Below the pieces are notes generated by a model. It was given only the letters and a program-made list of their open reading frames with translations, ran no database searches and was not told the DNA's origin. A stretch of 7,465 nucleotides of DNA from Cyanobacteria bacterium RUI128 (lineage in GTDB: Bacteria > Cyanobacteriota > Vampirovibrionia > Gastranaerophilales > Gastranaerophilaceae), in NCBI GenBank assembly GCA_024695725.1, contig JAILHQ010000094.1:1-7465 (forward strand), read 5' to 3'. Each line of letters begins with the position of its first letter. Within the stretch, counting starts at the first letter, position 1. Shown here piece by piece: positions 314 to 7,465 of the stretch. A program made the translations under genes and the position numbers.

Positions 314-628
314 TTAGTAAGAGAAATATCTGTCAAAATCAACATCATCAAAACTGCAAAGCAGCAGGAAAATATCATCGTTTTCATCCATACGCTGAAA
401 ATTATATTCATCAAACAGCCAATATTTGGGGTTATTTCCTTTTACACGCACAATACTTTTTTCTTTAAGTATATTCAGTTTCTTTTTAACTGTATCCAGA
501 GGCAACTCAACGAGTTTTGATAATTCAACGGCTGTTATCCCGTCCTCATTATCATACTTCTCGGGAGTAAGGAACATAAGTTCCAGCCCAACCTTTTTGA
601 GTTCAAGATCTTCTTCTTCCATGCACAT
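314..628 (-). CDS. Small winged helix-turn-helix DNA-binding protein
   Basis: This 104-residue protein probably binds DNA as a transcription regulator. Residues about 29-75 read as a winged helix: a first helix (ITAVELSKLVE), a turn (LPLD), a recognition helix (TVKKKLNILKEKSIV) and a basic wing (RVKGNNPKYWLF). This is the general pattern of small MarR/ArsR-like wHTH domains, but I cannot assign a named family. Both ends are acidic (EEEDLEL; DENDD and DDVDFDRY), which may serve for partner contact. There are no membrane segments. The start at 628 is followed by a second ATG two codons later (622), also possible because no Shine-Dalgarno is visible before either. The gene lies 47 bp downstream of the giant gene on the same strand, so co-transcription is plausible. 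An inverted repeat just upstream suggests autoregulation. Its targets could be the dyads in this window; that is inference. Confidence 0.75.
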   Translation of the reverse strand: MCMEEEDLELKKVGLELMFLTPEKYDNEDGITAVELSKLVELPLDTVKKKLNILKEKSIVRVKGNNPKYWLFDEYNFQRMDENDDIFLLLCSFDDVDFDRYFSY

Positions 629-675: not shown

Positions 676-3600
676 CTAGATTTCCTTATCTCTTGTTTCA
701 AGGCCAGGAGTTTCAACCGCTAACTGGCGAAGAACTTTGTTGTTGTATTCGACAAGTGTCATATGGTCTTTCTTTGCCTTCTGTTGATCCCTGTATCCTT
801 TTGAATATTCAGGCAGGCTAAGTTCATCAAGGAATTTGTATATCAAGTTAACGATGTTAATGTATGACTGAATTTCCTTGATTTCTTCGGTAACCTTGTC
901 GTTAACCTCAGAGAACGCATCGTTCATTCTGTGTTGCATAATGACACTCTTTGTTACTTCAGGTTTTGCCTTGATGAAGTTTACACCGTCATCGAGTGCG
1001 TTGAGTAATGTTTTTACGCTTGCTTTGTCTTCCGTATTTTTTGTACGTTTTTTGATGTTGCGTTTTGTTTTTGCAACAGCCTTATCCAATTCGGCAGGAT
1101 CTTCCATCTCGTCAATATTCTGTAAAAGATCTTCGTATTCCTGTTTGACGACATTTGTCAGCTTGTTAGATTTCCTTAAAAGGCCGGCAATTTCGTCAAT
1201 CTTACCTTTTGCATCAACACCTTCTATTGTCTTCATTTCAATCTTAACGATTCTGTCTCCAAGACCAAGTTTTTCAACAAACATTTTTGCAGTTTCGGTA
1301 TTGTCCTCTAAAATCAGGTTTCTTATCATATAGTCAATAGAAGCATCTGAATTCATACTGATTTTCTGATCCTGATTATAAGGGTCTACATAGTAATCGT
1401 CAAAGTAATCCTGAACGTTAGAAGCATTACCCATTTCTACGGCTTCCATCAGGTAGTCCTGTATTGAAACATATTTAGCCAGATTAAGTTCTGTTTCAAG
1501 GTAGTGTTTATACGTTTGCTGTTGTGCTTCAGGTTTAGCATCCTTAGCTGATAACAGAAGGAAGTTGTCAATTACTTCGAGCGGATGTGATGTCAGGTGA
1601 TATTTCTTGAAATCAGCCTGGAATTTTGCTTTTGCAAATTCAAGGTCCTCAGGATTTATTTTTTCCTTTTGTCCGCCGTTAATGGTTCTGTTAATCATAT
1701 CTTTCATATTTGCTCTTACAGTAATCTGAGCGTCAGGCTGAATGTACTTAGTTACAAACTTATCAGCTTTTTCGTTCAGTGCCTGTAATTCTTTTTCCAA
1801 TGCTTCAGGCGAAGTTTTTAAATCATCTTTCATATTCTTTGCATTGAAGGCTGCATTTGTAATCTCAACGTAGTCTTCTATTTGAGATTTTTTATCGGCG
1901 CCTTTATTTGAGAACATAGAAATCTTGTACTGAACTTCCATTGCTTCTCTGTTGCTGTCTATTGCGTTGTTGTTTCTGCGTGCTTTTACTTCAAGATTTA
2001 TCCAGTTTTCCAAATCATTTCTCATTGTTCTGTGATATTTTGGAGGAATGTTTGTATTCAGAAGGACATTGAAGTAATTTCTGAGTGCTTTTGAATGAGC
2101 GTCGTTAGACTCTTCAAAATCTTTGATGCCGTTTACGTGTTCTATCATTTCGATAGTTTCAACCATTGTATCAATGTCTGCGTTATAATCTGCTATGGTT
2201 GCCCCTTCTGGTATATCCATTGCGTCATAAGCGTCATTCAGTGCATCTTCCAGATCAGGATCTGACATGTTAGCAGTAATAAACTTTCCTATCATATTAT
2301 CAAGAACCGCTTTTTCAGCCTTTGTCAGAGGTTTTCCTTCCGGAATCATTTTTCTGTAATCATCAAGCTGATGGATAAGTTTGATGTCATAGATACAGTT
2401 CTTTTGCATTGCGATTGTGCCAAATGTATCATCAACAATTTTTCCTGCTGTTTCTATTTTGTTATTAAGAACCGGGTCGTTTGTTAAGTCAATCTTTGGA
2501 TATGCAGGGAAAGCACCATATTTTCTGTAATTAGCATCTTTGTACTTGTTAAATGCATTCGGATATTCCAGTGACATCAGTGAGAAATACATTGTTCTGT
2601 ACAAGTCGTCAAAGGTTCTTGCTCCGACATAGAAAGCACCTCGGGCATTTTTCTCAAGTTTTTTGAACTTATAAGAAGGTCTTGTTTTACTGATATCAAG
2701 TGTTTCACTGTATTCATCATAGAATAGAGTATTTCTCAAAAGGCTTTCAGCACCTTCGTTTGCTGCCTTAACCTTTTGAAGCAATTCATAGCCTTTGACA
2801 TCTTTTATTCCAAGATATTTGTCATCAATATCTCTTGTAAGTTTATCAAATTCTTCCTTAGGCATATCCTGAAGCGTTCTGTAAATGCGTACAAAATCAT
2901 CGTCTGACTGAGGTGCAAACTTGTCGTCTATCCATTTCTTTATGCCGTTTGCCTTATCAGAGGAGTTCTTCAGGTCTTCCTTTGTGAAGTAAAGGTTATC
3001 GACATAAACCTTTTCAAGGTTTTCTAAGAATTCTTTCTTTGCTTCTTGGCTTTTTTCTGATACAGGAATCTGTTCGTCAAACTGCTTGTCAGCACGTTTT
3101 AAGAAGAGATCTATGCTGTTTCTTACACTTCCGTTCCATTCTTTTTGTTCGTCTTTTTCAAGAGTTGCAACATTTTTAATAATCTTAGCCGCATCGTCGA
3201 GCGGAATCTTAATGTCGTGGTTCTTAAGAGCATTCAGTATAGCATTTGAGAAATCCAGACCGTGGTCATAAGCGACATACAAGAACGGGTTGCTTACAGC
3301 ATCGTTTTTGTTGAATGAATAGTAGAAGTTATCAAGTGCTATTTTTCTTTGTTTAGCCTTGATTTTTCTTACATCGTCCATTGTTTTTGCAGCACCGAGT
3401 TCTTTATACATGCTTGCATCTGCGTAAGAACCTCTTACGGCTGCTTTTTCAAATGCAACTTTTACTATATCGTTATCAGGTAAGCTGTTATATTCTTCTT
3501 CTGTTGTGATACCCTTGTTGAAAGTTGAATCAGTGATGCGTTCAATGATTCTATCATATTGCTTTCTGTAGGTTTCACCGATTGATTTGTTTCTGAAGAT

Positions 3601-6600
3601 ACGTTTCTGTATTTCTTCTTTTGTCATACCTTTGGCATATTTTTCAAGTTTTCCGATATATGCTGTTTCAGGAATGAAAATTTCATCTTTTATTGCGCCT
3701 GCAATATCTTTATATTCGGTTGTTGTACCTTCAAGAATAATATCGTGCATTATTGTGAAGTCGTAGTCGTTTGCGTGAGTCGGGTTTATTTTCTTGTAAA
3801 CCTTACTATCAACATCGTCAGGGCTGACGTGACCTTTTTTGTGAGTAAGGTTTTCAACGAAATTCCCGTTTAACCAGTCTTTGTTTGTAATGTAACCTAA
3901 TTCGCCACCGCGTCTGTCGCTGTAGTCAGTACGTGTCAGACCGTTAGAGTCAACCCAGGTGTTTTCGTGCTCTGAAGCACCCCAGGTGTTGTCGTGATAA
4001 AGGATGTCTTTTCCTGTCTTTTCATCTTTTACAACATCTGCAATATACATTGCGTGTCCACCCTGTCTGTCGTGGAAAACACTTGAACCTGATATGCCTG
4101 AATGTGTGCCGTTCTTGATTTTGTCTACGGCTTCATCAATATCTTTGACAGCATAGTGCGGTCTATCAGTTAATTGTTCAAAAATCTTTATCTGCTGCGG
4201 TGTAAATAATCCGCTGGTTCCGTCGGCTATAACCCAGTATGAACCTTCATTTGTACCAACATATCTTGCGATTTCTTCAAGAGGTTCTTTTATTTCTCTA
4301 TATTGGTATTCAAGGTTGCGGGTAACATCTGCATACATTGCGTTTAACTTACCGTGGATTTGTTTAACTCCTGCTTTTTCTTCTTTTGACAGTTTGTACA
4401 ATGTAGGATCGGAAATCTTTCCTTGTCTGCTTGAGAATTCATCTGATGAACGAATTTTATCTATTTTTGTGAATCTGTCCTGAAGTTTTTTCATTGTACT
4501 TACAGGAATAAGCTTGCCTTCGTTTTCCATCTTTTTCAGGATGATTGAGGCTGCGTTTGTAGTGAAATACGGTTCCCCGTTTTCATCTTCTACTTCGAGC
4601 ATTGCCCCTGCGTTCGCAATTGACTGGGACAGTGTGTTAAATCTGTTTCCGATACTTTGTACCGCATTTAGAATATCATCTTGTGATGCATCTTCCTTTA
4701 GACCGTTTACAGCTTTGAAGTTAGAGATATAAAAATCTCTTTGTTCTGAATCCGGACCGAGTACATTGTTTGTGAAGATTCCGAAGATATCAACGAACGC
4801 ATTTACCTGATCCTTATAGCCCATCTTGTTGAAGGCTTCCACATAAGCCTTTTGATCTTCAGGCTTATCTGTCAGATTCTTTTTAAGTTTGTCTAATTCT
4901 TTAAGAACGGTGAGTTTGTCTTCTTTTGAGTGCAGGCATGTTGCAGTTCTCTTTAATTCTGCTTTGTCGCCGTGTTTTATGGAATCTGATGCCCCATCAA
5001 TTTCATTTATCATTAGAGCTCGTCTGTTACCGTATCCTAAAGCCGAATATAGTTCATCAAGTTCGTCTGTAAGCAGGTAGTCAACCATATTTTTTACAGC
5101 ATTAAGCCCTTCAACTATTTTTTCCTTATCGTCAGGTGTTGTGTTGAAGTATGGCGCGAAGTGATTTAAGAGCTTCTTATCGTTGTTCTTTTCAATCTTC
5201 TTTATTGCTGTTGCATACCCGTCTGATATACGTGTTTCTCTGTCCGGAACGTTGTATTTTATAAGCATATCATCTTTGTTATCGTCCTCCATCATCCCGA
5301 CAACAACAGATGCTCTGTAAATAGCTTCAGCTTCATACATTTTTCTGGCTTTTGCTATCTTTCTTGCAGGAGAATTATTCTTGTTTAGTTTGTTATCAAG
5401 TGTGTTTATTTCCTCAAGTGTGGTGACGATATATTCCGAATTAGCTTTTAATTTATCTCTGTTAATGAGCTTTCCGTAGCTGTCAGTCAGATATGCTTCA
5501 ACCTTCTTGATTTTTTGAGAAGGTTCTTCGTTCGGAATAAATGCATATCTGCGTAATTCCTTCGGTAATTTTTCGATATTTGCAGATAACGGTTGAGCTA
5601 ACTTCATCATATCGCAAAACATCATTTCCTTTGACTGTTTTATAGCTGTAGGTGCAATATCTTCTATTGCTTTTCTGATGTATTGGTTATCTTTTTTGAG
5701 CTTCTCAATGTTGAGGTGTCTTTCGTCTCTGTTTTTGGTAGACTCGATATCCGATCTTATCTCGTCTGATTTTACGCTTCCAATATCAGCTTTTGCTTTT
5801 GTTAATACCTGGAAAAATGCCTGTTTATGAGCAAGTTTTTCATCAGGGATGCTCTTAGTAAAGAATGCGTCGTGGAAGGCATCAAAGTTGTTCTTGTCGA
5901 AGGCGTTAAAATCGTGCATATTTTCATTTTGAACGCCGTACATGCCTCCGATGTTCATCCATTGAAGAGTTGAAGCGTCAACTATTCTGTACCCTCTTTT
6001 TTGAGCATAGTCATAATCTACATAGATTTTCTTAACAGGTATTCTTTTACCCTTGCCTAAATTTTGTCTGTCATAAATCATTACGTTGTCGCTGCTGTCG
6101 AGTTCTGACAGAATCGCATCAACGTAGTTTGGTTTATCTTCGTATGCAATAGACTTTCTTGCTATTGAAATAGCGGCACACATACCGTGAGTCTTTTGGT
6201 TAATTGCCTTGATATTAGGAATTTTTGAATCAGGTGTGTTTACCGTAATATCGTTTACTATTTCTGAAAGCACCTGAGGCTTTTTGTCTTTGAGCTGTGG
6301 GTTTATTTCATATTTTGAGCTCATCATATAGTTAAGACGTTTAAGAATATATTTCTTCTGTTCAATAGGGGTTTCTGTTGATGTAATGAAATATTCAAGA
6401 TTACGTTCAATATCATCATGGTACTGCGTACCTTTTACGGCTTTAACAAGACGGTTTTTCCCCTTCGCAAGGTATTCATCATCTTTTGTCGGCTGTTTCT
6501 CGTCAAAAACACGATTGATTTCGGGCTGATACTTTTCTCTCAATATCGGATTTGAAATAGCTAATGACTCTTCTGCGGCGTGCTTAAGCTTTGCATTCCA

Positions 6601-6849
6601 GTCATTTTTAACAGGACGTTCAACTTTAGGAATAACAGTCTGATACTTCAGATTCTTACCTACATCAAGCAAAAATCTAATGTTTTCTTCACCTCTTTGT
6701 TTTGCCAGATTATCAATGGCTTCGTTTATACGACGCTGATTTGGTTCATTCAGTGAATAGTCATTGTTTTGTCTTAGTTGTGATACTGTATTTCTGTCTT
6801 CTCTCACGCTTTTAAATGCGGGTAAATTTGCTAAAAAGTTAACTTTCAT
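676..6849 (-). CDS. Giant papain-like cysteine protease candidate, 2057 aa
   Basis: I do not recognise the protein as a whole. A papain-type active site can be read: Gln218 and Cys224 (INQKTHGMCAAISIAR; papain has the same Q-x5-C spacing at Gln19/Cys25), His932 (GGHAMYIADVV) and Asn954 (YHDNTWG, like papain's NSWG). Residues 1-200 are mainly helical and could act as a prodomain. About 300-870 form a long charged helical insertion between the Cys and His halves, with coiled-coil-like stretches near 371-398 and 643-662. About 1040-2057 is a large helical tail with no fold I can name. I count only four cysteines (224, 412, 638, 1485), and see no signal peptide or membrane segment, which fits a cytoplasmic protein or one exported by a signal-less route. 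The start is supported by AAGGA 6 nt before the ATG. The frame is open throughout, with stop TAG. The gene leads the regulator gene. Substrate unknown; protease activity is inferred from motifs. Confidence 0.7.
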   Translation of the reverse strand: MKVNFLANLPAFKSVREDRNTVSQLRQNNDYSLNEPNQRRINEAIDNLAKQRGEENIRFLLDVGKNLKYQTVIPKVERPVKNDWNAKLKHAAEESLAISNPILREKYQPEINRVFDEKQPTKDDEYLAKGKNRLVKAVKGTQYHDDIERNLEYFITSTETPIEQKKYILKRLNYMMSSKYEINPQLKDKKPQVLSEIVNDITVNTPDSKIPNIKAINQKTHGMCAAISIARKSIAYEDKPNYVDAILSELDSSDNVMIYDRQNLGKGKRIPVKKIYVDYDYAQKRGYRIVDASTLQWMNIGGMYGVQNENMHDFNAFDKNNFDAFHDAFFTKSIPDEKLAHKQAFFQVLTKAKADIGSVKSDEIRSDIESTKNRDERHLNIEKLKKDNQYIRKAIEDIAPTAIKQSKEMMFCDMMKLAQPLSANIEKLPKELRRYAFIPNEEPSQKIKKVEAYLTDSYGKLINRDKLKANSEYIVTTLEEINTLDNKLNKNNSPARKIAKARKMYEAEAIYRASVVVGMMEDDNKDDMLIKYNVPDRETRISDGYATAIKKIEKNNDKKLLNHFAPYFNTTPDDKEKIVEGLNAVKNMVDYLLTDELDELYSALGYGNRRALMINEIDGASDSIKHGDKAELKRTATCLHSKEDKLTVLKELDKLKKNLTDKPEDQKAYVEAFNKMGYKDQVNAFVDIFGIFTNNVLGPDSEQRDFYISNFKAVNGLKEDASQDDILNAVQSIGNRFNTLSQSIANAGAMLEVEDENGEPYFTTNAASIILKKMENEGKLIPVSTMKKLQDRFTKIDKIRSSDEFSSRQGKISDPTLYKLSKEEKAGVKQIHGKLNAMYADVTRNLEYQYREIKEPLEEIARYVGTNEGSYWVIADGTSGLFTPQQIKIFEQLTDRPHYAVKDIDEAVDKIKNGTHSGISGSSVFHDRQGGHAMYIADVVKDEKTGKDILYHDNTWGASEHENTWVDSNGLTRTDYSDRRGGELGYITNKDWLNGNFVENLTHKKGHVSPDDVDSKVYKKINPTHANDYDFTIMHDIILEGTTTEYKDIAGAIKDEIFIPETAYIGKLEKYAKGMTKEEIQKRIFRNKSIGETYRKQYDRIIERITDSTFNKGITTEEEYNSLPDNDIVKVAFEKAAVRGSYADASMYKELGAAKTMDDVRKIKAKQRKIALDNFYYSFNKNDAVSNPFLYVAYDHGLDFSNAILNALKNHDIKIPLDDAAKIIKNVATLEKDEQKEWNGSVRNSIDLFLKRADKQFDEQIPVSEKSQEAKKEFLENLEKVYVDNLYFTKEDLKNSSDKANGIKKWIDDKFAPQSDDDFVRIYRTLQDMPKEEFDKLTRDIDDKYLGIKDVKGYELLQKVKAANEGAESLLRNTLFYDEYSETLDISKTRPSYKFKKLEKNARGAFYVGARTFDDLYRTMYFSLMSLEYPNAFNKYKDANYRKYGAFPAYPKIDLTNDPVLNNKIETAGKIVDDTFGTIAMQKNCIYDIKLIHQLDDYRKMIPEGKPLTKAEKAVLDNMIGKFITANMSDPDLEDALNDAYDAMDIPEGATIADYNADIDTMVETIEMIEHVNGIKDFEESNDAHSKALRNYFNVLLNTNIPPKYHRTMRNDLENWINLEVKARRNNNAIDSNREAMEVQYKISMFSNKGADKKSQIEDYVEITNAAFNAKNMKDDLKTSPEALEKELQALNEKADKFVTKYIQPDAQITVRANMKDMINRTINGGQKEKINPEDLEFAKAKFQADFKKYHLTSHPLEVIDNFLLLSAKDAKPEAQQQTYKHYLETELNLAKYVSIQDYLMEAVEMGNASNVQDYFDDYYVDPYNQDQKISMNSDASIDYMIRNLILEDNTETAKMFVEKLGLGDRIVKIEMKTIEGVDAKGKIDEIAGLLRKSNKLTNVVKQEYEDLLQNIDEMEDPAELDKAVAKTKRNIKKRTKNTEDKASVKTLLNALDDGVNFIKAKPEVTKSVIMQHRMNDAFSEVNDKVTEEIKEIQSYINIVNLIYKFLDELSLPEYSKGYRDQQKAKKDHMTLVEYNNKVLRQLAVETPGLETRDKEI

Positions 6850-7231: not shown

Positions 7232-7309
7232 TTTAAGAAATGTAAAGTATGGGCTTTTTTTGTTAAAGTTTGTTCTTAACATTTCCGTAAACGTAAATGG
7301 AAAAAACTT

Positions 7310-7313
7310 AGGA
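7310..7313 (+). promoter_or_regulatory. Putative ribosome binding site of the right-edge gene, long spacing
   Basis: AGGA lies 12 nt before the ATG at 7326, exactly as in the left-edge gene. The conserved, unusually long gap is worth noting when choosing the start. ATG 7332 (third codon) would put AGGA even further away. Confidence 0.4.
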
Positions 7314-7325
7314 AAATCAACAACT

Positions 7326-7465
7326 ATGGGTATGTCATCATCACAAGCGAGATTATTGAATCTGACTGCAAGAATGCACCAGATTGAATACAAAGCTGCC
7401 AAACTTGAAGCTCAAAAACTTCAGATGGCAAATGAATCTCGTCGTGTATATGACGATTACCTCAA
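7326..7465 (+). CDS. MGMSSSQ-type small protein, N-terminal part
   Basis: The first 46 codons are present and the gene runs off the right edge. The product opens MGMSSSQARLLNLTARMH, followed by a charged, Ala/Lys/Glu-rich helical stretch (about residues 18-46, IEYKAAKLEAQKLQMANES) that looks like a coiled coil. There is no signal peptide. I recall this opening from a widespread family of uncharacterised proteins in Gastranaerophilales (Vampirovibrionia); I know no demonstrated function. The start is supported by its identity with the left-edge gene over ATGGGTATGTC and over the stretch upstream. It is divergent from the giant gene across a 476-bp region and has its own probable promoter. The family call is from memory; the coding call is firm. 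Confidence 0.75.
   Translation, partial: MGMSSSQARLLNLTARMHQIEYKAAKLEAQKLQMANESRRVYDDYL

Follow-up and report, generated by a model that had tools for sequence, protein, structure and literature searches.

The window, by which we mean the whole analysed stretch of 7,465 nucleotides, carries on its reverse strand an ATG-started open reading frame (ORF) for a giant papain-like protein of 2057 residues (positions 676–6849; all features of this protein given below lie on the same strand). The protein begins with a region lacking a hydrophobic, signal-like stretch (residues 1–183; 6301–6849), which is followed by the first (L) lobe of a predicted papain fold (residues 184–336; 5842–6300), an insertion that is all-helical in the AlphaFold2 model (residues 337–868; 4246–5841), the second (R) lobe (residues 869–1004; 3838–4245) and a less conserved, helical C-terminal region (residues 1005–2057; 679–3837). 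The limits of both lobes were set from the model and the structural alignment before any invariant column was counted; the C-terminal part was modelled separately (residues 1000–2057) and is nearly all helix, with a pLDDT of 85.4 and a pTM of 0.67. Nothing in the window protein looks like a signal or membrane stretch, the 19-residue mean hydropathy being 0.79 at its highest. Among 195 family members, eight have a 19-residue mean of at least 1.6 at some point, and a hydrophobic start (12-residue mean of 2.0 in the first 45 residues) is seen in none. A short motif, F-x-[G/S/A]..R, is present within the first 60 residues (6670–6849 in the window) in 191 of the 195 members and could be a lineage-wide N-terminal tag; a looser form of the pattern occurs in 15 of the 145 ORFs in the flanks, only a few being convincing cases (at L016 and L034).

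The genes around the family loci differ between loci. In the window, a small ORF of 104 residues (314–628, reverse strand) lies 48 bases downstream of the gene and is helix-turn-helix-like by two weak matches: one to Csa3/CARF regulators, in their helix-turn-helix parts (E 0.0035), the other to a phage family (E 0.0037). It adjoins the gene only in close relatives of the window and is probably not part of the system. On the other side, a divergent ORF (7260–7463, forward strand), cut by the end of the window, has a helical-looking sequence, the first 67 residues of which match no NCBIfam family. At another locus (L001, 5459–6260), two adjacent small membrane-like proteins resemble a CrcB-like paired fluoride channel by appearance only.

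Homologues were collected in two steps. A protein search with residues 180–1100 gave, counting the window's own, 279 matches at E ≤ 1e-3; the best 120 of them were listed, most of which are similar in length to the window protein. A profile search extended to shorter and remoter relatives, and of its 93 proteins 75 had new identifiers (P0121–P0195). The resulting alignment had 207 rows: 195 proteins, that of the window among them, and 12 ORFs taken from fetched genomes. Two rows, L034 and L035, were dropped because they are halves of genes, lying at contig ends in the same genome, with one site each. The remaining 205 rows (204 distinct) share a median pairwise identity of 31% (3000 sampled pairs). 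Named members are labelled Candidatus Gastranaerophilales (P0016, P0178), Gastranaerophilaceae (P0177), Melainabacteria (P0129) or simply “bacterium”. A family match was present in 93 of 286 genomes from the order of the closest genome, in 3 of 97 genomes of the class sample and in 13 of 146 of the phylum sample; all positives of the latter two samples were already present in the order sample, and the 69 class-sample genomes outside it gave no match. Absence from a genome is soft evidence, since genome completeness was not stated. The locus assigned to Candidatus Gastranaerophilales (L002) sits in a genome of the order sample (G002), and the matching genomes and named members are Gastranaerophilales, which are uncultured gut bacteria.

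The initial annotation of the locus had picked out four residues as a papain-type active site, and all four are found at the proposed positions of the 2057-residue ORF: Gln218, the putative oxyanion-hole glutamine (6196–6198); Cys224, the putative nucleophile, in the motif INQKTHGMC (6178–6180); His932, the putative catalytic histidine, in GGHA (4054–4056); and Asn954, in DNTWG, the counterpart of the asparagine in the NSWG motif of C1 peptidases (3988–3990). In papain, the catalytic cysteine and histidine are about 134 residues apart. In the translated ORF, Cys224 and His932 are separated by 708 residues, as had been claimed; the distance is 691–718 across the best 120 of the 279 matches and 460–739 across the 205 aligned sequences. 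Conservation of the four residues, which had been proposed as a check, is complete: Gln, Cys, His and Asn are invariant in 120 of 120 listed sequences (window included) and in all 205 rows of the alignment, and no aligned homologue reaching both sites lacks Cys224 or His932 (0 of 205). The order Cys, His, Asn/Asp with an oxyanion glutamine before the cysteine, characteristic of the superfamily, is thus kept throughout (205 of 205).

The distribution of the other invariant positions follows the same division. Exactly 20 of the 2057 columns are invariant in the 205 sequences, and all 20 lie inside the two putative protease halves: 12 in residues 184–336 (E196, D200, K214, Q218, C224, R231, K232, K239, E249, R288, D291 and D327) and eight in residues 869–1004 (H932, D953, N954, W956, G957, E960, Y976 and G981). 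The N-terminal region, the insertion and the C-terminal part contain none in this alignment. That four positions named in advance should all fall among 20 of 2057 has a probability of ~7e-9, a naive figure because conserved positions cluster. These two segments, to which strict invariance is confined, are predicted to make up a single papain-type domain.

Structure prediction points in the same direction. The AlphaFold2 model of residues 150–1010 is confident (pLDDT 90, pTM 0.87) and has the two-lobed papain fold, as a prediction, with the cysteine on the core helix and the histidine on the sheet: Cys224 (model residue 75) lies in helix 72–88 and His932 (model residue 783) in strand 782–792. 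Foldseek alone returned no match for the model. Structural re-alignment gave calpain cores, staphopains and a C39 domain as the eight best chains, each with an aligned range from model residue 34–64 to 853–855. In keeping with the single fold initially considered, Cys224 and His932 are not put in separate domains by this model, the top eight papain-fold enzymes all spanning both halves. Because of the invariant columns, the confident model and the structural matches across both halves, it is very likely that the two halves form one papain fold.

At the level of sequence, the relation to papain is faint. No Pfam or NCBIfam family fits the window protein: an hmmscan against Pfam (E up to 10) gave no match to PF00112 (Peptidase_C1), to C19 (UCH) or to the calpain C2 and staphopain C47 families, the likeness to the last two being structural only, and a precomputed Pfam domain is absent from all listed rows (120 + 93) of both homologue searches. 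A C1 profile was assembled from PF00112 matches in genomes belonging to the same order and phylum (36 loci, of which one below the cut-off was omitted, 14 were off the motif pattern and 21 were used), and the family alignment was divided into 96 overlapping windows of 150 residues, each of which was scored against this profile. The top 13 of these 96 are exactly the seven that contain Gln218 and Cys224 and the six that contain His932 and Asn954, with scores of 23.7–26.3 as compared to 18.7 for the next and a median of 12.3. NQKTHGMCAAIS aligns onto the NQGxxGSC block of C1, and GGHA...DNTWG onto GGHA...NSWG, with the catalytic residues in register, which bears out the papain-like order and local context ascribed to the four residues. 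Both alignments are short, with low hhalign probabilities (12% and 7%), and would not establish homology to C1 by themselves.

The insertion between the lobes had been described as a helical module of roughly 700 residues; its helical nature is borne out by the model (helices from 188–226 through 673–719 in model numbering), but its size is about 530 residues (337–868, 532 in the model). Some 216 residues of this arm, missing from part of the relatives, are an array of tandem helical repeats, each 72 residues long. Profile self-comparison pairs residues 532–603 (5041–5256) with residues 604–675 (4825–5040) at an offset of 72 (E 4.3e-8), the yardstick being the two halves of the C-terminal region (E 0.31). 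A possible third repeat, residues 676–747 (4609–4824), is weak, with E 0.0012 at offset 72 and 0.0014 at offset 144, an off-register offset of 107 being no worse (E 0.0004). Across the 205 sequences, the distances from the cysteine to the repeat start (293–306 residues, 10th–90th percentile) and from the repeat end to the histidine (151–153) are nearly constant, and the repeat stretch (530–780 in the window protein) spans ~250 residues in most sequences and ~34 in some, with about ten in between. Since this stretch varies and its flanks are constant, the short forms (50 of 205, about a quarter; Cys–His distance 460–499, typically ~480) lack ~217 residues, corresponding to three repeat lengths. 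In a tree of 34 rows, the seven short rows fall into two groups, which may nevertheless share a single origin. The arm itself is kept in all 205 sequences; none of its residues is invariant, and most of its change is in the repeat block. In two distant relatives (P0190 and P0195), with Cys–His distances of 529 and 530, the insert is longer in its first part (356 and 318 residues), so variation is not limited to the repeat block.

Taken together, the gene is most readily explained as encoding a new, lineage-specific predicted cysteine peptidase with a papain fold and a helical arm between its lobes, a reading to which we assign a probability of roughly 0.8. Such an enzyme could function in the following manner, by analogy with papain: The two lobes would form a papain-type cleft, as papain enzymology and the pattern of conservation suggest. 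In this cleft, Cys224 would attack the peptide bond, with His932 acting as its base, Asn954 orienting His932 and Gln218 completing the oxyanion hole. The arm and the helical tail of ~1050 residues may serve to bind or choose substrates or regulate entry to the cleft, a weaker inference than the preceding steps. The arm, presumably grown out between the lobes, is probably an element for substrate binding or control; this role is modelled on the insert of USP4, which helps activity in a ubiquitin-specific protease. More speculatively, a family confined to gut Gastranaerophilales may have arrived independently at a USP-like solution, in which a nested arm, with its 72-residue repeats gained and lost as a block, would tune reach or specificity while the active site stays fixed; we regard this extension as tentative and somewhat doubtful.

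A papain fold need not imply a peptidase, and the Cys–His–Asn site might serve a transferase, amidase or deamidase instead. Papain-like families do include transglutaminases, acetyltransferases and deamidases (PMC10318531), but the glutamine six residues before the cysteine, the GHA-like context of the histidine and the N-[T/S]-W-G motif match C1 peptidases, the closest folds on structural re-alignment are peptidases, and the acetyltransferase/deamidase cluster is described as almost always lacking the oxyanion-hole element (PMC10318531); a function of this kind is thus unlikely. Similarly improbable is a regulatory or self-processing enzyme that acts on itself or on one partner, cutting arm or tail and freeing a mature protein: the very long single chain, the less conserved tail and the want of a generally conserved neighbour in the flanks compared would fit, but neither arm nor tail has an invariant column. 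Chance motifs, with Cys224 and His932 belonging to different domains of a structural protein made of helices, would agree with the missing family match at sequence level and the empty result of Foldseek alone but are very hard to reconcile with the conservation in 205 of 205 sequences, the location of all 20 invariant columns and the papain folds spanning both halves that head the structural list.

If the predicted peptidase with its arm is real, a gut bacterial order whose enzymes are poorly known gains a large protease family that annotation had passed over. It would also illustrate a route by which an enzyme escapes annotation, namely a catalytic motif split in two so that neither half has a family match, and the arms with and without the repeat block would provide a natural series on the effect of an insertion into a papain core.

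Among known systems, papain-type C1 peptidases (PF00112) resemble the family in how Gln, Cys, His and Asn are ordered and in the sequence around them, including N-[S/T]-W-G, but here ~530 residues separate the lobes, and the protein has 2057 residues as compared to 220 positions of the domain model. Membership in C1 was rejected: although the local motifs agree, there is no PF00112 match and the domain is not compact (Cys–His 460–739). Calpain cores (C2) and staphopains (C47) show no detected sequence similarity to the window protein, and their cores are not known to contain so large an insertion. The C39 peptidase domain of PCAT1 aligns over 122 residues at 2.9 Å, with a range across both halves; it is a small ABC-transporter domain that is not known to have an insertion of this kind. 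The C19 family comprises ubiquitin-specific proteases, which are ubiquitin-binding enzymes known from eukaryotes. Like the protein described here, C19 enzymes such as USP4 have a papain-like catalytic core that is interrupted by a large inserted domain. In C19, a fingers insertion grips ubiquitin; the insert of the present family is modelled as helical. The 50 structural matches listed include no USP chain, which carries no weight either way. Assignment to C2, C47 or C19 was likewise dropped, as none of their family models matched in the Pfam scan. The insert of USP4 comprises ~285 residues, between 481 and 766, and its deletion is reported to lower kcat about sevenfold (PMC4243247); the insert is about half as long as the arm here, and no sequence similarity was found. 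According to a 2023 survey, papain-like catalytic residues are often tens to hundreds of residues apart, and the cysteine helix may join the remainder of the fold through extensive insertions (PMC10318531). The principle of large insertions is therefore known, and the initial statement that no described family is so arranged was too strong in view of these insertions and of USP4 (PMC10318531, PMC4243247). Neither Gastranaerophil- nor Melainabact- is mentioned in the main text of that survey, the Cyanobacteria/Melainabacteria group is tabulated among the prokaryotes examined for C1A peptidases (PMC10380794), and no description of the family was found in the titles and abstract openings of the open-access papers retrieved. 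Within the literature searched, there thus appears to be no account of the family, of its size, of the bacterial group that carries it or of its arm with repeats, and by its predicted fold and active site it can be filed as a new family in the papain-like superfamily.
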